A stretch of DNA of 46,212 nt, from IMG/VR virus record IMGVR_UViG_3300035181_000244, positions 1 to 46,212 of that record; one strand, written 5' to 3'. Below, piece after piece: positions 3,322 to 45,401 of the stretch. How positions within the stretch are numbered: position 1 is the stretch's first letter; each line of letters opens with the position of its first letter. Position numbers and translations under genes: made by a program. This DNA comes from a virus. A model generated the notes under the pieces. It worked only from the letters and a program-made list of their open reading frames with translations, did no database searches and was not told the DNA's origin.

Positions 3322-5211
3322 TTAAATTTCGCAATTTCCGGCAGTGCAGGCCAGTGTTTGTGCGCCTTCTACATTATCATCTAACTCGACAATAGCATCC
3401 CAGTCGATGTTTGAAGGCATCTTAGCTAAAAATGCTTCGTATTCTGCCTTAGTGCAATCTTCATACGGTGCTTGTTTGTAATTTCCACCGTCGTATGGTA
3501 AAAATGATACACCCGACATCTCATCAAAATGTTCCCAAACAAATGCACCTACTGCCGGCCATTCTGTTTCATTTACCGAAATAGTAACCGACGGTTTATG
3601 TTCACAATAATGACGCTGATATACTAACCATAGATTTAAATGTTGAATAGCGGTAAGGTCCGACCGTAAAACTGCTCCGTCTGGTGCTTTCTTTGGGAAA
3701 GTAAATACCATCGTGCTACCAGGTTTCATTACATCTGGTTCGCAAGGCACACCTGCTGCCATCATAGCTTTAGTTAACGGATCTTTTAAGTCACCGCGAA
3801 CACGACGATAGTAATATGCAGCATGTCGTGGATGAATTCCGCTTGCCGTATCAGTCAATTGCGATACTGTGCCCGATGGTTTAACTGCTGTGATAGATGC
3901 AGATACAGGAATACCTAATATTGCCGCTAATTCAGCATTAACATCAATTGTTAATGAGCGTAATTCTTCTAATCGCCCAGGCAATTCCACATCAGTATGG
4001 TCATTTAATAGCGAATTATCCATAATGCCTGTCATAGATACACCTAACAAACGTTCCTGTTCGGTATTATCGCGCCAGATCTTACGCAAGTATGGAAAAT
4101 GTGTAAGTGTAGATTGAAATGTTCCTAAAATCGCAGCAATACGAGCTTTACGTAGTAAATCTTCTTGTGTATCAGTAGCACGAACAATAATCTCTGTTAA
4201 ATTACAGAATTGATAAGGACGTAAGATAATCTCTGCACACGGATTGGTTCCGAACTCGAAATCCGGATTACGACGACCGTTAATCTTTACAATATTCTTT
4301 GCAGCTTCACGATTAAAAATTCCACGTTCGCCCGATTTTGATTCATACAAAGATGACCATTCTTGCATGAAAATACCTACGTCCGGGCGTTCTGTGTGAC
4401 ATGCACTGTTATTAGCTAATGCTCGTTGTCCTTGAGTCTCCCACCATGCACCGGATTTAGCATTACGCATACGGTCATCGGATAAATTCGACAAAGAGAT
4501 CATTGCAGAACGACGAACACCACCCACAACTACCACTTCGCCTACTTTACACATGATATCGTGGCACTCTAACGAGTTAAGTTTGCGTCCTTGTGCATTT
4601 TTGAAGATTTTTATTACAAATTTGAATAATTCGACTAATGGTTCCGGTCCCGAGGCACGGCCGCCAAATGTTTTCAGCCTTGCTCCTGACACACGAACTT
4701 TACTAACGTCCCATGTTGGTGCTTCACCCGAATAAAGCAATGATATAACTTGGCGGAATGCTTTCGCCCAACCTTCCTTGCTATCTGATACGACTACAAC
4801 AGTTTCACTATCATAAATTCTTTCAGGTACTTCCGGTAATTTAGCAATATACTGACGTTCTACACTAAAACCTACACCCGTACCGCACAATAAGATGAAC
4901 ATTGCTTCATCAAATGCTTTAGGGTCATCGATAGGAAGGTAGGAACAGTTGTATCCAGCTGTATTATCGCGTTCAAGTGCTCTACCTGATGTCATTAAGG
5001 CGCGCATCGATGGCATAACTTCGAACTTAGTAACCGCTGTCTGTAATTCCGACCTAAGCGAGTCCGATAATGTATAGTTATGTTTCTGGAATAGATGATT
5101 TTCTAAGAAATCAAAATAACGATGGACAGTTTCGTCCCAGTTCTCCCGACGCTTCTTAGCATCTATATATCGTGCGTATCTACTCTTTGCAATGTATGTT
5201 TCGTATATCAT
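3322..5211 (-). CDS. nrdJ: Adenosylcobalamin-dependent ribonucleoside-triphosphate reductase (class II, monomeric)
   Basis: 629 residues from the ATG at 5211, chosen because GGAGAAAAT precedes it; an upstream ATG 30 nt earlier has no such site. It reduces ribonucleotides to deoxyribonucleotides using B12. Visible: NPCAE at 323-327 (radical Cys325 and Glu327), the redox pair Cys89 (YNCSY) and Cys336 (FCNLTE), CGTGVGFSVE (109-118), PSGTVSQLTDTASGIHPRH, and the C-terminal dithiol CTAGNC that reloads the active site. It is shorter than the roughly 740-residue Lactobacillus enzyme. T4 itself uses a class I enzyme. No NrdA/NrdB pair is seen in the window. It needs cobalamin from the host. Confidence 0.92.
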   Translation of the reverse strand: MIYETYIAKSRYARYIDAKKRRENWDETVHRYFDFLENHLFQKHNYTLSDSLRSELQTAVTKFEVMPSMRALMTSGRALERDNTAGYNCSYLPIDDPKAFDEAMFILLCGTGVGFSVERQYIAKLPEVPERIYDSETVVVVSDSKEGWAKAFRQVISLLYSGEAPTWDVSKVRVSGARLKTFGGRASGPEPLVELFKFVIKIFKNAQGRKLNSLECHDIMCKVGEVVVVGGVRRSAMISLSNLSDDRMRNAKSGAWWETQGQRALANNSACHTERPDVGIFMQEWSSLYESKSGERGIFNREAAKNIVKINGRRNPDFEFGTNPCAEIILRPYQFCNLTEIIVRATDTQEDLLRKARIAAILGTFQSTLTHFPYLRKIWRDNTEQERLLGVSMTGIMDNSLLNDHTDVELPGRLEELRSLTIDVNAELAAILGIPVSASITAVKPSGTVSQLTDTASGIHPRHAAYYYRRVRGDLKDPLTKAMMAAGVPCEPDVMKPGSTMVFTFPKKAPDGAVLRSDLTAIQHLNLWLVYQRHYCEHKPSVTISVNETEWPAVGAFVWEHFDEMSGVSFLPYDGGNYKQAPYEDCTKAEYEAFLAKMPSNIDWDAIVELDDNVEGAQTLACTAGNCEI

Positions 5212-14029: not shown

Positions 14030-14076
14030 GATAAATCTCCTAATATAGTTTCGCAGACTAAATATCTGCATAAACA

Positions 14077-18297: not shown

Positions 18298-19167
18298 CTA
18301 TGTTCGGACGATAAGTTTTTGCATTACGCCCGGATCTAATACATCCAAGGAGGGAAATAGCCTAAATTTTAGCCACATAAAATTAGCAGCAAATGTCCAT
18401 GCTTGTGTGCCAGTATATCCAACATATTCGATATCTTTTGACATCGAGGACGGATAAATCTTAAACCATCTTACATCATTGAGATATGCATCCGGAGTCT
18501 CTTCTAATGTTCCCCACACTTCTAATACACCTGTAAAATTTTCAGTATAAGTTGAAAATGATTGGACCGATTCTTTATGATTTAATATTCTGCCACCCGG
18601 AATTCGCCCAGTATAGAAGCATGGACGAGGTGCGAAAGCAGTCGATACAATGATATCGGGTGTCCAGTCTTTTGGTGTATATGTAACACTAGGCATCGGT
18701 GCTTTGAATGCTTGTTCTGTGATTTGTAATTCCATAGAGATATTATCATTAATATCACTATACAACGGCTTTTCGATATAATATCCAGGTAAACCAGATA
18801 CAAATTCTTCCGTTCTAATAAGAACCATGTTGTATAACCCCGGAGCAACATCTGCAATATCGCCACTATCCAACATTAACACTATCAATCCTTTTGCTGG
18901 ACCGAGTGTGCATAGTTTTTCTAGAACAATTGTCCTATTTTCTACATTGACTACTCGTGCATATACTTGCTGATTACATGCAATGTCGACTGGTGTTCTA
19001 TCAGGTCCTAATGCCCTGAAGATAATTTTATTGTCGACCCCTTTATGTGCTAAAATTGGAGCTTTGTTCATTGGGCCATTGTCGCGAAGTGGGCAAAAGA
19101 CATCGTCAACTGCAAGTAATTGTCTAACATGATCATATGCGAAAACCTTGTGGAAAGTTATATCCAT
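18298..19167 (-). CDS. Baseplate/tail-type virion protein
   Basis: 289 residues, two beta-rich halves. The N-terminal half (DNKIIFRALGPDRTPVDIACNQQVYARVVN, then APGLYNMVLIRTEE) resembles the Ig-like N-terminal domain of phage baseplate upper proteins (BppU type). The second half (FTGVLEVWGTLEETPDAYLNDVRWFKIYP, then MWLKFRLFPS) looks like a sandwich domain common in tail proteins. Assignment is by resemblance. Its start overlaps the stop of the HNH gene (TAATG), so the endonuclease lies directly upstream in the same message. Confidence 0.65.
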   Translation of the reverse strand: MDITFHKVFAYDHVRQLLAVDDVFCPLRDNGPMNKAPILAHKGVDNKIIFRALGPDRTPVDIACNQQVYARVVNVENRTIVLEKLCTLGPAKGLIVLMLDSGDIADVAPGLYNMVLIRTEEFVSGLPGYYIEKPLYSDINDNISMELQITEQAFKAPMPSVTYTPKDWTPDIIVSTAFAPRPCFYTGRIPGGRILNHKESVQSFSTYTENFTGVLEVWGTLEETPDAYLNDVRWFKIYPSSMSKDIEYVGYTGTQAWTFAANFMWLKFRLFPSLDVLDPGVMQKLIVRT

Positions 19168-19892
19168 TATTTATCTACTCTTAATTTACATTTATTAAAA
19201 TGATGTAGTTTCATTGCTCCAGGCCCGCCTGTTTTATCACAGTGTGGACAAGAAATAACTGCCTGTTTTATACCTTTTAATTTTGACGGTATACCTGTGC
19301 GGGCCTTAATAAAATTTGCCGTATGTGTTGCTGTTCTCGGCGCTTTCTTTACACCATTAAGAGACTCACTTATTTTTTTCTTTGTTTCGTCGGATCTATG
19401 TGTACCTATCTTAGCATCGCTATATTTCTTCTTTGTTTCGTCAGAATGTTTTCTGCCTATATTAGGATTAAAATTAGCAAATGAATCTTTTATCTTCTGC
19501 TTATGTTCGGACGTTAACGGAATTCCCTTTTTAGCTGTTCGTGACGCTTCTTTAACAATTGCATATTCATCTGCATCAATAACACGGTCACCGTTTTTCT
19601 TAAAACATAATCCAGATAAAGCATATAACATCTTTCGCTTGTATATTCCTGAAAACATTTCTGATAATAACTGATGTGCTAAGAAATGCTCCTTAGCAGA
19701 AAATGTTACTAAATTAGTAGGATCCTTTATTTGTAGTTTGTCATTGCACATACATACTGGTAACATATGGTGTTTTTCTACATACCCGTCAATTAAATCT
19801 CGTAACAATGCAGACTCGCATAATGCAATATAATCAATCGACTGTTGATTTTTTAATGAAAGATTCCATATAATATCTAAGTAAGTGTTCAT
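19167..19892 (-). CDS. HNH homing endonuclease with NUMOD3-type repeats
   Basis: 241 residues. HNH core: KHHMLPVCM (40-48, catalytic His41/His42), DPTNLVTFSAKEHFLAHQLL (57-76, Asn60, His69, His73). Then DNA-binding minor-groove repeats of NUMOD3 style: GRKHSDETKKKYSDA and THRSDETKKKISES. Last, a Cys2/His-type finger (CPHCDKTGGPGAMKLHHFNKC). Free-standing mobile gene. A late box lies 5 nt before its ATG and an early promoter at 19940-19968. Its stop overlaps the next start. Confidence 0.88.
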   Translation of the reverse strand: MNTYLDIIWNLSLKNQQSIDYIALCESALLRDLIDGYVEKHHMLPVCMCNDKLQIKDPTNLVTFSAKEHFLAHQLLSEMFSGIYKRKMLYALSGLCFKKNGDRVIDADEYAIVKEASRTAKKGIPLTSEHKQKIKDSFANFNPNIGRKHSDETKKKYSDAKIGTHRSDETKKKISESLNGVKKAPRTATHTANFIKARTGIPSKLKGIKQAVISCPHCDKTGGPGAMKLHHFNKCKLRVDK

Positions 19893-20017: not shown

Positions 20018-20389
20018 ATGATAGATTTGAATGAAATAAACGAGAAATTCCCATTCCTGAGTGGTTTAAAGTGCCAAACGCACGAATACATCGGTATCAT
20101 TCAAAATTCGGATGATAAAATTATAAGCTTTTATGATTACGAAGCTATACGCACACCAGAAGAGAAGGTGTTGTTTATGGAATTGGGTGAAACTTGGTGG
20201 TGGGAAAGTAATAGATTATTGCCGATTAATATCTTTTTGCAAGGGCAGATGACTCCGTTTAGATATTGTATGAAAACTATCGTAAATAAAGATGTAGAAG
20301 TTATGTTTGGATCGCTAACTAGCTTAAACAACATAATGAAGAAACGTATCAAGAAACGTCAAATACAATTGATTCGTCGGGCTGACTAA
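20018..20389 (+). CDS. Conserved phage protein on the opposite strand
   Basis: 123 residues, the single plus-strand gene. Core GETWWWESNRLLPINIFLQGQ then FRYCMKTIVNKDVEVMFGSLTSLNN is a pattern I recall from uncharacterised T4-like-phage proteins, and the third-position base use resembles a real gene. Ends in a basic helix (MKKRIKKRQIQLIRR), so nucleic-acid contact is possible. No Shine-Dalgarno; a late box is 5 nt before the ATG. Its 3' end overlaps the convergent gene by 41 bp. Confidence 0.75.
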   Translation: MIDLNEINEKFPFLSGLKCQTHEYIGIIQNSDDKIISFYDYEAIRTPEEKVLFMELGETWWWESNRLLPINIFLQGQMTPFRYCMKTIVNKDVEVMFGSLTSLNNIMKKRIKKRQIQLIRRAD

Positions 20390-37529: not shown

Positions 37530-38204
37530 TTATGCTACCGGATCTACAATAACTAACTGCGGAAGTTCGCCCGATGTGCGCCACATCATGTTCTGGGCAG
37601 ATACATCAGTTTCTAAATTTGTGTTTTGATCTGCGATATGCGCAACTAATTTTAGTACTCTTTGTAAATTTGGATCTTTAATTTTACTAGGATTCTGTAA
37701 ACCTGCCTCTACTTTCTCCTCAATATACTTAGCCATCATTCTGCCCGTAGCCCTTGTCCATGTACCGAACATCTGAATACACACAGCTTTCATTGCTTCT
37801 GTATTATCTAAAATTTCGAGTGAGTCAAATTCTGTTAATTTTTCTAAGTTAGCTCTGTAGTGGAGTTTCTTATCAGGTGCTCGGCTTATCCTTAAATCAA
37901 CTATAACAGGGAAATAAGGATTGTTTGCACCTAATTTAGTGAATTTATTTACTTGCATTAAATACATCAGGTATCCATCGTCTTCGATATTTTCGACGGA
38001 GCCACTTAAATCAGAAATATTACCTGCTTTAGCAACCTTAGTAACCTGATTTGCACGTTTTGGCGAATCTGTTGCAAATACACTACTAAATGACCCTGAT
38101 CCAATTTCTTTAGCAGATGTTTTAGATTGGACATTTTGGAGATGCTTGTTTAAGTCTCGTTTTGTATTCTTAGGTTCGAAATCTATTAGTTCGTATAGTC
38201 GCAT
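37530..38204 (-). CDS. Kinase-fold-like phage protein
   Basis: 224 residues. A P-loop-like KEIGSGSFSSVFA (33-44) and Lys56/Lys59 (TKVAK) resemble the glycine loop and VAxK of protein kinases. TDVSAQNMMWR (199-209, Asp200 and Asn205) resembles the catalytic D-x4-N loop. VIVDP (218-222, Asp221) resembles the DFG/Mg site. The protein stops 3 residues later, so the C-lobe is absent. It could be a minimal or inactive kinase or APH-like enzyme. Similar kinase-like virion proteins are only faintly known to me. TAATG-coupled to the gene upstream. Confidence 0.6.
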   Translation of the reverse strand: MRLYELIDFEPKNTKRDLNKHLQNVQSKTSAKEIGSGSFSSVFATDSPKRANQVTKVAKAGNISDLSGSVENIEDDGYLMYLMQVNKFTKLGANNPYFPVIVDLRISRAPDKKLHYRANLEKLTEFDSLEILDNTEAMKAVCIQMFGTWTRATGRMMAKYIEEKVEAGLQNPSKIKDPNLQRVLKLVAHIADQNTNLETDVSAQNMMWRTSGELPQLVIVDPVA

Positions 38205-39928: not shown

Positions 39929-40564
39929 TTAAGTAGCAATTGCGCCACCAGCCGGGCTGTATGGGAATGGGTAAGTTGGATATGGATCTCCACCAACTGA
40001 CATACCTTCGTTTGTATTCGGGCCAGCCAAATTAACTGCATTATCGAAGCGGATAGTCAATGTTACTTCCTGTGGATCGCCACTAGAATAATCACCGTCG
40101 CCATACTGAGCAACGTTAATGAAACATCCTTCTAAATACCAGGACTCAAGTTCTTCATTAACTGTACCATCTAATGAGTGAATTTCCATTGCAAATTTAT
40201 AATTGATACCAGCTACTGCACTTGTCTGTTCAAAATGGTTCATCTGTTTCTGAACTTGTGCGCCAACTGATGTAATAACCGAGTTAGTAATATCATCACG
40301 TAATTTAATTTCGATTGCATCAAAACTATGCTTACCTTGGATCCATACAACAGAGTTGTATGAGTCTAACTTAACTTCTTCGTATGTAACTTTTGGACGA
40401 GTGCATGTCATAACGTTTGCAGTCATTTCACGTAAACCAAAGTTCTCACCAAAGTTATACCAAACTACTCGGAAACGATACTTCTGTTTAGGATGCAAAA
40501 CACCCTGGTTCACACCATCAATCGGTACGCCAAATTTAGATAATGTTGAAAAATTTTGTGCCAT
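39929..40564 (-). CDS. 19: Tail tube protein, T4 gp19 type
   Basis: 211 residues (T4: 163); CAGGAGATAAAA site, late box (40593-40600), own terminator. NFSTLSKFGVPIDG, then RFRVVWYNFGENFGLREMTANVMTCTRPKVTYEEVKLDSYNSV, then FDAIEIKLRDDITNSV matches the gp19 tube fold. The final 25 residues (GGDPYPTYPFPYSPAGG) are a Pro/Tyr tail not present in T4. Polymerises inside the sheath; expressed as a high-copy late gene. Confidence 0.9.
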   Translation of the reverse strand: MAQNFSTLSKFGVPIDGVNQGVLHPKQKYRFRVVWYNFGENFGLREMTANVMTCTRPKVTYEEVKLDSYNSVVWIQGKHSFDAIEIKLRDDITNSVITSVGAQVQKQMNHFEQTSAVAGINYKFAMEIHSLDGTVNEELESWYLEGCFINVAQYGDGDYSSGDPQEVTLTIRFDNAVNLAGPNTNEGMSVGGDPYPTYPFPYSPAGGAIAT

Positions 40565-40592
40565 TTTTATCTCCTGCTATATAAGCTAATAC

Positions 40593-40600
40593 TATTTATC
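40593..40600 (-). promoter_or_regulatory. Late promoter box GATAAATA
   Basis: Exact box (continuing GTAT), 28 nt before the tube ATG. Confidence 0.75.
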
Positions 40601-40615
40601 AATTTTTGATTTTTT

Positions 40616-41290
40616 TCATCCGACGAATTTATTAGAAAAATCAGTAATCACATATGATTCGCCGATGTCAATATTACACGAATAAGGTATTACAGCATAT
40701 CCTTGGTAACCCCATTTAGGTCCAGTTGAATTTGCAATAATCCACGATCCGCCATATAAGGTATCGTCGTATCCTATAATGGTAACTGCATGTCCAATGG
40801 ATTCAGGATTGTCAGTGTTATTTATCGGTTTATATTGATGATTGCAGAATTCACCACTTAAATTCCAAAATAATTTGCCTGTTCGTAATCCGACTATTAT
40901 AGGAATGTTCTTAGTTAAATATTCTTTAAATTCATCCGGTAACACCCATTTATATGTTAGTAATCTGTAATGAGCTGCTTCAGTAAATGCTGGTGGATGT
41001 GGAACTGTCTCTACTCTCGATACTGCAAATGGCCAATGTCTTTCCGGAGGAACACCATATTGCATTAACGCTTCCAGTGTTGTCTTTAATTCTGCACCTT
41101 TTTTACCTAAGCGACCCTGTAATTTTCTAGTCATATAATATAAGAATAGTCTAGAAAAATTTAGTGTAATCCCTTTTGTCGACATCATTATCTCAACAGC
41201 AAGTAATGTAGCACTGGCAGTACAACAATCCACACCCATCTGAGGTTGTATATAATTAATGTATGGTCTTAGAGACATGGATGGATTCAT
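40616..41290 (-). CDS. Papain-like (C1A) cysteine protease
   Basis: 224 residues. Oxyanion Gln17 and catalytic Cys23 (QPQMGVDCCTASA, matching Qx5C of papain), RLFLYYMTRKLQG, LEALMQYGVPPERHWPF, then His167 (SIGHAVTIIGYDD) and Asn187 (IIANSTGPKWGYQGY) with Trp193-Gly-x2-Gly complete the C1A triad. No prodomain and no signal peptide, so it acts inside the cell. It lies between sheath and tube; the late box is 6 nt before the ATG and no Shine-Dalgarno exists. Target unknown: virion maturation or host protein cleavage. Confidence 0.85.
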   Translation of the reverse strand: MNPSMSLRPYINYIQPQMGVDCCTASATLLAVEIMMSTKGITLNFSRLFLYYMTRKLQGRLGKKGAELKTTLEALMQYGVPPERHWPFAVSRVETVPHPPAFTEAAHYRLLTYKWVLPDEFKEYLTKNIPIIVGLRTGKLFWNLSGEFCNHQYKPINNTDNPESIGHAVTIIGYDDTLYGGSWIIANSTGPKWGYQGYAVIPYSCNIDIGESYVITDFSNKFVG

Positions 41291-41296
41291 ATGAAT

Positions 41297-41304
41297 TATT
41301 TATC
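41297..41304 (-). promoter_or_regulatory. Late promoter box at the protease start
   Basis: Exact GATAAATA, 6 nt (ATTCAT) and the ATG at 41290; directly after the sheath terminator. Suggests leaderless mRNA. Confidence 0.7.
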
Positions 41305-41306
41305 GA

Positions 41307-41335
41307 TAAAAAGAAACCAGCCGAAGCTGGTTTCT
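41307..41335 (-). terminator. Rho-independent terminator after tail sheath
   Basis: Minus-strand stem AGAAACCAGC / GCTGGTTTCT (41335-41326 and 41321-41312) with a TTCG loop, then TTTT. Ends the sheath message. Confidence 0.9.
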
Positions 41336-41352: not shown

Positions 41353-43917
41353 TTATAGTGATAAATTTGATCCAGTGTTTTTAATACGGATCGGGATGTA
41401 AATAAATTCAATTGCCTTAACTGGCTGAATCGCAATATCAATCCACAACTCGTTCCTATCAATACGTGCTGGTGTATTATTACTTAAATCACATACAACT
41501 AAGAAATCATACAAGCCACGCAATGTAATAAGTTCCGATAAGAAACGGTTGAATGCGTCAGATACTGATTTACGTGTAGTTGTATCATTTGGCTCAAACA
41601 AGAATGGCTGAGCAAGTAAATTTAACTGGTAACGTAAATAGTTCTCTAAACGAACAACATTAATGCGATCTGTTGCACTTGCGTATGGCTGACGTGTTTT
41701 TTGACCAAAGATAACAATACCGCCTTGTGGCATAACACGAATTGGATTAATACCATTCTGATAAAGTATATCGCGCTGGCCTTCATTCAACTTAACTGTA
41801 ACAAATTGTCCATCGGCATTAACATAACCAACTGCTGCTGCATTATTGACTACACCGCGCTGTAAACCAGCTGGTGCAAACCACGGATATGCAACTTGAT
41901 CATTATAAGCAATTGTGCGTAATGCCATATGTGACGGTGGAACAACAACATCTGTTCCGTCGACATTAGTAGCTAAACCACTTGGATACCATGCAGCAAA
42001 GTATTTACTTGCAGAAACAAGTCCATCTGCACCATTACCGAATGGTAGAGATGCACCAGTTGCCCAATTTTGCAAAGATGTGCCGGATGCATTTAATGTA
42101 AACGGTGTATCGCCTACAACAAAAGCAGTCTGTTTACGATCTTCGTTCAATACAAGCATCTCGTCAATTGCTTCAACAAATCCTGGAGCAGCAATAAGGT
42201 TAAAATACAAATCTTCTGCACGAATTTCTTCGTCGGAGATAATTGCTGACTGGATTGCTCTTACGATAACGATTTGCTGTGCGCCAGCGCCCATGTATGG
42301 AACACCGGCTGCGTTATTACCTGAAGAATTAACCCAACGTCCTGTCGAACCATTATTTGTATTATCTGGAGAAGCTGTTACGCCATCAAATACATACGGA
42401 GACTGCCATTCTTTGACATTGTCAGTAGAATAACGTGTATTCCAAAGTATAAATCCTTTAGGATATAATGCAGCTTGTGGAGCATCTGCGTCTAAATCTG
42501 GATAGTTGCCACCACCGTTATTATCGCCTGTACCTACTATACCGCCCAACTTATATAGTGGATTAGAACGAGCATCATTAAATAAAATACCATTCGGTGT
42601 TGTTTGATCAGTGTTATTAACTAATGTCCAACCGGTACCATTATAACGATAAATCACTGGATATGGTGCAGCATCTGTCTGAATCCATATGTCACCGTAT
42701 GCCAATACTGGAAGCGGAATATCGCTGCGTGGATCAGCTGGCTGAGCATATAATGTAGGATTACCTACTGCGCCAGGAAGTGTAAATCCAGCTAAGTTAC
42801 AATTTTCCCAGTGGTCCAAACCATCCGAGATAAGGATATCAACAACTGACTTACCGTCACTATCCAATCCTAATAATGCATTAAACCAAAGTTGTCCGTT
42901 CGCTGGACCATTTGTTGGTACGGATTTAGAACCAACAATAACTGCTAATGGAGCCCACGGACCTGTTGCACCGGAAGCTATTCTAAATTCTAATTCATTA
43001 GTAAGTGTAGAACCTGTACCAATAACTGGCTCGATATAAATCTGGCCGTTAGAACCAAAAGCGTTTGTGCTATAATATGTATTCGCTGCTGTATCATCTG
43101 TAAGAATTGGTGCTTCAACTTGCAAGAACGCAGAAACTGTAGAATCCATTTTACGCAATACAAGATTTGCACCTTGTGCTGCCGATGATGTCTTAACCCA
43201 GAACGTCTGAGTAGTTAATACGTTTGTAAGATCAGGCCAAATTGACTGAATTAATGTTTGTGTTGTAGGAGTTGTACCTAATTGAACCCATGCACCTGCA
43301 ACTTTCGTCCAATAAGATAATGCTGCGGATGCAGTCTGGAATACTACTGCAAAGTCACCATTTACGCCGTCTGCAAGAGTAGGTGTGTTAGTTGTACCAG
43401 TTGCAAAATCGTATACAAACTTAGGAGTTACTGTTGTCCAGATTTCGTTCGGGAAAGTTCCTGAACGAGTGAACAATCCATACTTGGATCCACTCGATGA
43501 TTGGTCAAACCAGTATGTTCCAATTGTTGCAGGACTTGTAGGTTCGATCGGAGTTGCTTCTAATTGTGCTGTATCCACATCTGCGCGAACTACACGGCAC
43601 AAATTAGAAATACCTAAATACGAATAAGATGCCAGTAGACCGTATTCATTCAATGGATAACCATTAAGTGAAGTACCACTAACAGAATAAAATATTGGAT
43701 CGCCGAATGTAGACACTAAATCTCGCTGAGAAGTAATAGACCATACTTTTCCAGCATTGGATTTAAGTGTACCTTGTGCTATTCCAGTTCCTGTTGGATC
43801 TGATTTGTCTTGTTGTGTCGCTATAAAAATAAGCGGAACAGTACCTGGACCTGCACCAACATTGATGCTCTGATCTATTACCGAAATACTTACGCCTGGG
43901 GAAACTAAAACTGCCAT
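41353..43917 (-). CDS. 18: Contractile tail sheath protein, T4 gp18 type
   Basis: 854 residues (T4: 659); AGGAG site and late box (43957-43964). MAVLVSPGVSISVIDQS is the standard sheath start. GDIWIQTDAAPYPVIYRYNGTGW, then NGILFNDARSNP, and the C-terminal ELWIDIAIQPVKAIEFIYIPI helical/handshake region are gp18-like. About 200 extra residues, relative to T4, sit between the handshake and core domains (after residue 120), built of repeated GTYWFDQSS/TYYSTNAFG-type beta units. Contracts to drive the tube through the host envelope. Confidence 0.93.
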   Translation of the reverse strand: MAVLVSPGVSISVIDQSINVGAGPGTVPLIFIATQQDKSDPTGTGIAQGTLKSNAGKVWSITSQRDLVSTFGDPIFYSVSGTSLNGYPLNEYGLLASYSYLGISNLCRVVRADVDTAQLEATPIEPTSPATIGTYWFDQSSSGSKYGLFTRSGTFPNEIWTTVTPKFVYDFATGTTNTPTLADGVNGDFAVVFQTASAALSYWTKVAGAWVQLGTTPTTQTLIQSIWPDLTNVLTTQTFWVKTSSAAQGANLVLRKMDSTVSAFLQVEAPILTDDTAANTYYSTNAFGSNGQIYIEPVIGTGSTLTNELEFRIASGATGPWAPLAVIVGSKSVPTNGPANGQLWFNALLGLDSDGKSVVDILISDGLDHWENCNLAGFTLPGAVGNPTLYAQPADPRSDIPLPVLAYGDIWIQTDAAPYPVIYRYNGTGWTLVNNTDQTTPNGILFNDARSNPLYKLGGIVGTGDNNGGGNYPDLDADAPQAALYPKGFILWNTRYSTDNVKEWQSPYVFDGVTASPDNTNNGSTGRWVNSSGNNAAGVPYMGAGAQQIVIVRAIQSAIISDEEIRAEDLYFNLIAAPGFVEAIDEMLVLNEDRKQTAFVVGDTPFTLNASGTSLQNWATGASLPFGNGADGLVSASKYFAAWYPSGLATNVDGTDVVVPPSHMALRTIAYNDQVAYPWFAPAGLQRGVVNNAAAVGYVNADGQFVTVKLNEGQRDILYQNGINPIRVMPQGGIVIFGQKTRQPYASATDRINVVRLENYLRYQLNLLAQPFLFEPNDTTTRKSVSDAFNRFLSELITLRGLYDFLVVCDLSNNTPARIDRNELWIDIAIQPVKAIEFIYIPIRIKNTGSNLSL

Positions 43918-44003: not shown

Positions 44004-44642
44004 TTATCTTATTTTAGATAATATATCGGATACCTGCATACTAAGCGATTCCAGTGTGCTATCGTTATTTATGTCATAATCAATTTTTGAGCCAACCCAC
44101 GCCCACTCGCTAAGATGTGCTGTGGAATATGTCTTTGTCATTATATCCTTAGCAATAGAATTACCCTTATTTGCAAGAATAGCTGTTTCAAACCATACCG
44201 GAGCCGGGCCACGATTTACACGTATCAATATACCACCCTGATCCTGAATGAATTTTATTTCATTGGGAAATCTAACATCGCTAATAACAACATCCTGATC
44301 TGGATTTTTACGAATTCTATTTCTTAAAGTTAAAAACCATAAATCTTGATGGAAATTATTTCGTAAAACATCTGTACCCATTATTTGCAGAGCATAACGT
44401 GGGCTAAAATTAGGAATACTAAGTTGTTCAGCCCACCACGGATCTACAATTTCACGCCATTCTCTAGATGCAGTCGTATCGCCTTCTAACATATTTCTTG
44501 GCCAATCGAACATCATTGCACATGCATCTTTTAAACTAGATGCAAAACTATCCTGTCTGAATCCGTGAGATTCGACAAGTGTAGAAGCTACTGTGCCTTT
44601 ACCGCTGCCTATAAAACCAAGAATTCCAATAATTTTAGTCAT
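44004..44642 (-). CDS. 1: Deoxynucleoside monophosphate kinase, T4 gp1 type
   Basis: 212 residues (T4: 241). P-loop GFIGSGKGT (9-17), EWREIVDPWWA, the ISDVRFPNEI motif, and a C-terminal helix. Phosphorylates dNMPs to dNDPs to feed replication (T4's enzyme also accepts hydroxymethyl-dCMP; whether this phage modifies its bases is unknown). SD AGGAAAATTAAAAG lies in the overlapping endonuclease gene upstream (8-nt overlap). Confidence 0.9.
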   Translation of the reverse strand: MTKIIGILGFIGSGKGTVASTLVESHGFRQDSFASSLKDACAMMFDWPRNMLEGDTTASREWREIVDPWWAEQLSIPNFSPRYALQIMGTDVLRNNFHQDLWFLTLRNRIRKNPDQDVVISDVRFPNEIKFIQDQGGILIRVNRGPAPVWFETAILANKGNSIAKDIMTKTYSTAHLSEWAWVGSKIDYDINNDSTLESLSMQVSDILSKIR

Positions 44643-45357
44643 CTTTTAATTTTCCTTTTTTCCATGATCCTGCCGGCTTTTTGCCTATATTTATTTCGTC
44701 AATACCGTTATTCCACCAAGTCTTACTCCATCTAATACGACCACGCTGCCAGCCTATACCTGGAGAATCTTTCGACCGAACAGTAATGGTTCCGTCATTC
44801 CACCATGGAGCTACCGCCGATTCTCGTTGCCGTTCTCGTCCTTCTGCCGAGTGGAATCCTAATTTTAAATCTCTGCATTTATTACCGGTTGCTATACGTT
44901 GTTCAATAGAAATCGAATAGATACCGGTTTGGTTCTTCCTGTTTGTTTCGGCTCCCTTACTGCTTGCTGCACTTTTATCAGGTGCCGACATAGCATGAAA
45001 TCCTAATTTTAAATCTCTACATTTATTGCCTGACTTAACACCTATCAGATGTCTTTCGTCATTAGTTAAAATGAAATTTCCATTCGAATGTTTATTAAGG
45101 TAGTTAGACCATTTCATCGTCCACTTATTCACACGACGCTCCCAGCTAACTGCATCTTCTTTGGTATTAAATATTTTTCTAATCTCTATAGTAAAAGCTT
45201 CACGTCCGTGTAATTCGATAAGGTTTTTAACAGATTTAGATGAAGTGAAATACGAGACAAAAAGGTCACTGGGCTTACAATTTTTCGCAAACCTGACACC
45301 ATAGTAATATTCTGATGTTATTTTATTAAAAACTCTGTAAGTGTACGGTATTGTCAT
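44635..45357 (-). CDS. Putative homing endonuclease (GIY-YIG-like N-terminus)
   Basis: 240 residues from ATG 45357 with the late box 5 nt before it; a TTG-initiated extension has no better site. N-terminus TYRVFNKITSEYYYGVRF, then SYFTSSKSVKNLIELHGREAFTIEIRKIF, resembles GIY-YIG-type endonucleases (tyrosines at start, Glu later). Two copies of GNKCRDLKLGFH, about 45 residues apart, and paired WWNDG/WWNNG motifs near the C-terminus look like DNA-contact modules. Ends overlapping gp1. The endonuclease assignment is likely, the subfamily less so. Confidence 0.7.
   Translation of the reverse strand: MTIPYTYRVFNKITSEYYYGVRFAKNCKPSDLFVSYFTSSKSVKNLIELHGREAFTIEIRKIFNTKEDAVSWERRVNKWTMKWSNYLNKHSNGNFILTNDERHLIGVKSGNKCRDLKLGFHAMSAPDKSAASSKGAETNRKNQTGIYSISIEQRIATGNKCRDLKLGFHSAEGRERQRESAVAPWWNDGTITVRSKDSPGIGWQRGRIRWSKTWWNNGIDEINIGKKPAGSWKKGKLKDD
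44855..45028. repeat. Direct repeat inside the endonuclease gene
   Basis: Near-identical 30-bp copies at 44855-44884 and 44999-45028 (2 differences), encoding NKCRDLKLGF twice. Likely a duplicated DNA-binding unit. Confidence 0.8.
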
Positions 45358-45362
45358 ATTAG

Positions 45363-45370
45363 TATTTATC
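45363..45370 (-). promoter_or_regulatory. Late promoter box at the homing endonuclease start
   Basis: Exact GATAAATA, 5 nt (CTAAT), then ATG 45357; follows a terminator hairpin (45402-45452). Confidence 0.65.
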
Positions 45371-45401
45371 TGTAACAACCTAAAAGGCCTACTATTTTAG
45401 T

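Follow-up and report, generated by a model that had tools for sequence, protein, structure and literature searches.

The main finding of this work is that a phage genome fragment carries, between its tail sheath and tail tube genes, a gene for a papain-family peptidase that is predicted to be made without a pro-region and from a late message of the leaderless type. The window, that is, the whole stretch of DNA analysed, is the 46,212-nt IMG/VR record IMGVR_UViG_3300035181_000244 (positions 1 to 46,212), and the gene lies at 40616-41290 on the minus strand. Judged by its sequence and modelled fold, the product is a xylellain-type C1A (papain-family) peptidase with an intact catalytic set. Papain-type enzymes are better known from plants and animals, and C1A peptidases are normally synthesized in the form of an inactive precursor. 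We hypothesize that the phage enzyme is an accessory protease made late, constitutively active in the cytosol and directed at a host protein, and that its gene is carried as a 'moron'-like cassette; this appears to be the best explanation of the data, and we give it a probability of about one half.

The 224-aa protein matched the Pfam family Peptidase_C1 (PF00112) at 1.6e-11 and 45.1 bits, against a curated cut-off of 20.7, and the same match was obtained for all 30 aligned relatives. When the PDB was searched with phmmer, xylellain, a short prokaryotic C1A enzyme of Xylella fastidiosa (3ois), was the best match (2e-13), followed by mite and vertebrate C1A enzymes. The AlphaFold2 model, built from an alignment of 30 sequences taken from the window and IMG/VR, showed a mean pLDDT of 95.8 and a pTM of 0.93; Foldseek placed 3ois first among its matches (E 1.7e-15, TM 0.83) and cathepsins next, and the model also matched phage Peptidase_C1 models in BFVD (TM 0.90). 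By sequence, fold and tree the nearest relatives were xylellain-type enzymes. An earlier note on this DNA had recognized the family from a Gln17-Cys23-His167-Asn187 arrangement, naming structure prediction as a check and a lack of conservation of these residues as what would speak against it. The papain fold was recovered, and the four residues, found at the positions claimed, were invariant in 40 core and 47 distant sequences, except that one core contig ends before the Gln/Cys region. The same note had taken NSTGPKWG for a typical C1A motif, which is wrong, since T stands where the nearly universal W belongs.

An IMG/VR profile scan returned 320 relatives, the 80 best of which were retained. 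In about 40 contigs, from one clade of jumbo myophages, the gene sits precisely in the sheath-tube gap. Their proteins share 48-66% identity with the window protein and form a monophyletic group (support 1.0), set apart by a long branch, in a tree that also included distant homologues from phages and bacteria. This core clade differs from its relatives in three ways. The pro-region is absent from every core sequence, as the earlier note had supposed for the window protein, while the distant homologues have a GWxPDxxDxRD-type N-terminus. The Trp that follows the active-site Asn-Ser (papain Trp177) was found in 0 of 40 core sequences against 47 of 47 distant homologues, a loss that could lower peptidase activity. 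Finally, a Cys at position 22, just before the nucleophile, is strictly conserved in the core clade, where 44 of the 47 distant homologues have Ser; among 27 core sequences below 90% identity it is one of 35 invariant positions out of 224, together with the catalytic four. As judged from these comparisons, the missing pro-region is a derived state and, because the GWxPDxxDxRD region is missing, the core protein should be regarded as a derived relative rather than a typical member of the xylellain type. The core-clade gene was not found in cultured phages among the records searched.

The position of the gene between two structural genes, as described earlier, was confirmed, with both flanks named by PHROGs; the strand, which had been left unstated, is minus. 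Its ATG is at 41290 and its TGA at 40618-40616. Upstream lies the tail sheath gene (41353..43917, minus; Pfam and PHROGs) and downstream the tail tube gene (39929..40564, minus; phrog_4542, 2e-53). Among cultured phages, the tube protein is nearest to Pseudomonas phage PA5oct and its relatives, and next to Sinorhizobium phage Phosso and Agrobacterium phage Atu_ph07 (46-48% identity for the set); the window is therefore a fragment of a jumbo myophage. Past the sheath gene there is an intrinsic terminator (41308..41335, minus) with a 10-bp stem, a UUCG loop and a T run (-15.8 kcal/mol, z -7.6), which has equivalents in core contigs and would separate sheath transcription from the peptidase message. 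It is followed by a late-promoter-type box, GATAAATA (41297..41304, minus), 6 nt before the peptidase ATG and with no Shine-Dalgarno sequence. The tube gene has the same box at 40593..40600 (minus), 28 nt before its ATG and followed by a GCAGGAG Shine-Dalgarno. Between the two genes, just past the TGA, an untranslated remnant of the C-terminal tail of the clade (KKSKIDK-stop; 40592..40615, minus) overlaps the tube promoter.

The GATAAATA box occurs 16 times in the window, always on the coding (minus) strand, against 5 occurrences expected. Of about 29 distinct sequences of the slot, nearly all have the box or a variant of it ending 4-7 nt before the peptidase ATG, with no Shine-Dalgarno seen. 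Two slots disturbed by inserts depart from this: L027 has lost its box to an inserted ORF, and the box of L031 is degenerate. Sheath and tube genes of the clade have a Shine-Dalgarno and longer distances from box to ATG, 39-43 nt for the sheath and 27-30 nt (51 in one case) for the tube. In T4, late promoters consist of an 8-bp box about one helical turn ahead of the start site (PMC2988020), and therefore the 5' end of the peptidase message should coincide with its AUG or lie a few nucleotides away. The leaderless late layout proposed earlier was confirmed as a conserved arrangement of box and ATG, with a transcription start that is probably at or next to the AUG. Chance as the source of the leaderless look was ruled out by its conservation over the 29 distinct sequences.

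Distances from box to start in the window and in two long relatives (G005 and G006) fall into two groups, of about 0-8 and 17-60 nt, with genes of the homing endonuclease type and small accessory ORFs among those at short distance. Short gaps at 14071, at 19167 and, in G006, at 56601 are probably false starts and were left out as evidence. Two homing-endonuclease-type ORFs of the window (NUMOD3, and a weak SegE GIY-YIG match), at 19167-19892 and 44635-45378, both minus, start about 5 nt past a GATAAATA box without a Shine-Dalgarno. It may be common for the mobile genes of these phages to have late starts with a short leader. A 123-aa ORF of no known family at 20018-20389 (plus), opposite to all its neighbours, is preceded by a TATAAATA box, 5 nt ahead of the ATG, and a homologue with the same layout occurs in G005 (66516-66887).

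The comparison of sheath-tube junctions, obtained from a tube-seeded scan, showed that the peptidase gene was retained in about 40 of 45 junction-bearing contigs of the clade and that five records (L088, L090, L092, G021 and G026) have a slot without it despite intact sheath and tube genes. L088 is the sister of the papain-bearing L025 (UFB 99), L092, with a NUMOD3 ORF in its slot, is placed with UFB 97, and L090, in which the box of the peptidase and an ATG survive, with UFB 89-95; G021 (362,810 bp) branches at the base (UFB 81). In L088, L090, G021 and G026 the sequence immediately ahead of the tube box resembles the 3' end of the peptidase gene, with a score above all 3000 shuffles, and L094 showed no significant tail remnant (p 0.11). 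The simplest reading, despite the basal position of G021, is that these remnants are deletion scars. Alternatively, they could represent an old promoter-upstream element; the second box and ATG kept in L090 and the nesting of the gene-less records in the tree argue for deletion. No papain gene was found elsewhere in L088 (166 kb), PA5oct, Atu_ph07 or G021; in G026, a distant papain with a pro-region lies 13 kb from the empty slot. With near relatives that lack it, the peptidase gene is dispensable.

Other genes use the same slot. It holds a Hef-like ORF in PA5oct and a Ro60-type ORF in Atu_ph07, and in relatives also NUMOD3 and DUF7487 ORFs of the homing endonuclease type. The Atu_ph07 ORF (L012:5686-7350), annotated 'Clp protease-like', matches Pfam TROVE (2e-36) and Ro60 vWA (6e-42); by these matches it is a Ro60-type protein, and the annotation seems wrong. 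In L089, an intact papain gene (3503-4228) precedes a second, degenerate fragment of a papain C-terminus (about 4240-4360), with a reversed DUF7487/endonuclease-type ORF also in the slot, an arrangement that suggests a trace of recombination.

These data bear directly on a possible role in the virion, in which the enzyme would trim a sheath, tube, baseplate or head protein, or be packaged and injected. The late-type promoter, the constant location within the tail-structural genes of about 40 contigs and the purifying selection would all suit such a role, and phiKZ, another jumbo phage, packages proteases (PMC13282480). A virion component should be retained wherever sheath and tube are kept, and the five close relatives named above keep both without the gene; in more than 50 more distant phages, sheath and tube adjoin directly with no peptidase between them. 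The slot position itself is a weak argument, because the slot also takes homing endonucleases. Moreover, the canonical S77 prohead protease (PF03420) is present alongside a clade-type tube in the clade records G021 and G026, and also in the cultured relatives PA5oct and Atu_ph07; S77 genes lie elsewhere than the sheath-tube slot, and Pfam found no PF03420 match in the window peptidase. The papain as a stand-in for the prohead protease was rejected on the evidence of G021 and G026; the long core contigs G005, G006 and G001 contain neither a major head protein nor S77 and are therefore uninformative on this point. The T4 gp21-type enzyme is likewise a phage-encoded late protease found in the same phages, but it is an unrelated serine protease that adjoins the major head protein and coexists with the papain clade. 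Because the clade has S77 and relatives such as L088, L090, L092 and G021 drop the peptidase, several of them with scars, while keeping their tail genes, the maturation of a virion protein, which the earlier note had considered, is disfavoured, and we regard a virion role in general as unlikely. Of that interpretation, the family, the catalytic residues, the absence of a pro-region and the late leaderless-type message hold.

A second alternative is that the gene is mostly selfish or hitch-hiking, spread and lost by recombination around the homing endonucleases of the slot and of little current benefit. The NUMOD3 and DUF7487 ORFs in the slot of relatives and the arrangement in L089 would be expected of such a gene, as would the weak correlation of peptidase distances with those of tube and sheath (Mantel r 0.30, p 0.003), a pattern compatible with a gene that is mainly inherited vertically and sometimes exchanged. 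Peptidase pairs are on average 54% identical, tube pairs 79% and sheath pairs 83%, and dN/dS is about 0.07-0.19 for peptidase pairs of moderate divergence and 0.02-0.17 for most sheath and tube pairs, figures that are rough because many dS values are near saturation. The peptidase evolves faster than its neighbours, yet under purifying selection. Such low dN/dS and the strict conservation of the catalytic set over divergent sequences require a benefit, and the peptidase itself cannot drive homing, so that a mere hitch-hiker seems to us a rather poor candidate.

A lysis or cell-wall factor, aiding release by cutting an envelope or wall-linked protein or peptide, would fit the late timing. There are precedents for it, since an ORF of Alicyclobacillus phage MMB025 annotated as an endolysin has C1, peptidoglycan-binding and glycoside-hydrolase-like domains, and jumbo phages have NlpC/P60 enzymes of papain fold that act on peptidoglycan (PMC7824862). 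Nevertheless, neither a signal peptide, a membrane segment, a wall-binding domain nor any extra domain was seen in the 224 aa, the match is to C1A and not to NlpC/P60 or CHAP, and lysis genes do not adjoin the peptidase gene; we consider this role improbable.

The accessory, host-directed peptidase fits best in view of the S77 enzyme in the clade, the loss of the gene with tail genes kept, and a survey of jumbo phages that took widely conserved peptidases to serve virion processing and patchily distributed ones to act on the host (PMC7824862). Against it, retention in about 40 of 45 contigs is high for a pure add-on, a protein associated with the virion could also be expressed late from among structural genes, and the loss of Trp177 may have lowered activity. 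We propose that the cassette was inserted once, between sheath terminator and tube promoter, in the ancestor of the PA5oct-related jumbo-myophage clade, and then lost repeatedly within it. Late in infection, a phage-modified RNA polymerase would start at the GATAAATA box, giving a message with its 5' end at the AUG or no more than about 3 nt from it, which would be translated modestly without a Shine-Dalgarno; low expression of the peptidase, also supposed earlier, would follow. The enzyme would be active as made, in the host cytosol, and would cleave one or a few host proteins, possibly defence, regulatory or envelope-control factors; cutting of a host defence protein is compatible with the sequence data. 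The cleavage may favour late growth in only some of the hosts; both patchy retention and faster evolution would then be explained. A more specific version of this proposal is that zymogen control was exchanged for control by message and redox state, with no pro-region, low-dose leaderless late translation and a Cys22-Cys23 vicinal disulfide that locks the nucleophile of a late, host-directed and possibly anti-defence jumbo-phage protease; taken as a whole, this version is doubtful.

In previous work, xylellain-type C1A genes were reported to have been acquired independently by Myoviridae and Siphoviridae (PMC10380794), and therefore a papain in a phage is not new. As far as our tools show, what is new is a clade that lacks the pro-region and has an altered active site, the constant location of its gene in a tail-operon slot that takes insertions, and a late start of the leaderless type that is conserved. 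The window protein shares the catalytic set and an SRLF.YY core with xylellain, but it lacks the N-terminal region and the Trp after Asn-Ser, and has Cys-Cys at the nucleophile and, in its clade, a short C-terminal tail. Other xylellain-type C1A peptidases of phages (Burkholderia FLC9 gp163, the huge-phage LR756511, L045-L087, G025, G026, G030 and BFVD A0A6J5TCZ4) have the catalytic residues in common with it at 27-36% identity and, unlike the core clade, keep the pro-region and Trp177. Nine of the aligned sequences of this set match phrog_16701 'peptidase', whereas the core proteins lack a PHROG, the window protein matching none. Genes of the distant phage homologues lie at unrelated places, and no neighbours common to them were found that could give a functional clue; nor did we find a paper on the function of any jumbo-phage C1A peptidase. 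Homing endonuclease insertions in late operons, such as the Hef-like ORF of PA5oct, share the slot and the leaderless-type layout with an own promoter, but the window gene encodes a peptidase and not a DNA endonuclease.

A cytosolic C1A peptidase without a pro-region under a leaderless late message would be a natural case of control by dose and not by zymogen. In addition, a gene in a structural operon need not be structural, as the sheath-tube gap is a slot in which homing endonucleases insert as well. Should the enzyme cut a host defence protein, a protease would join the known counter-defence tools of jumbo phages.

Two further observations concern related genes. Record G025 has two different papain-family genes (L318:7652-8599 and L319:7339-8097), one of them with a C-terminal hydrophobic segment. 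In the window, an ORF at 37530-38204 (minus), with no Pfam match, shows a weak PHROG match to the T7-type protein kinase family (E 0.014) and also matches phrog_3809; it is present at the same place in many relatives and missing in others.
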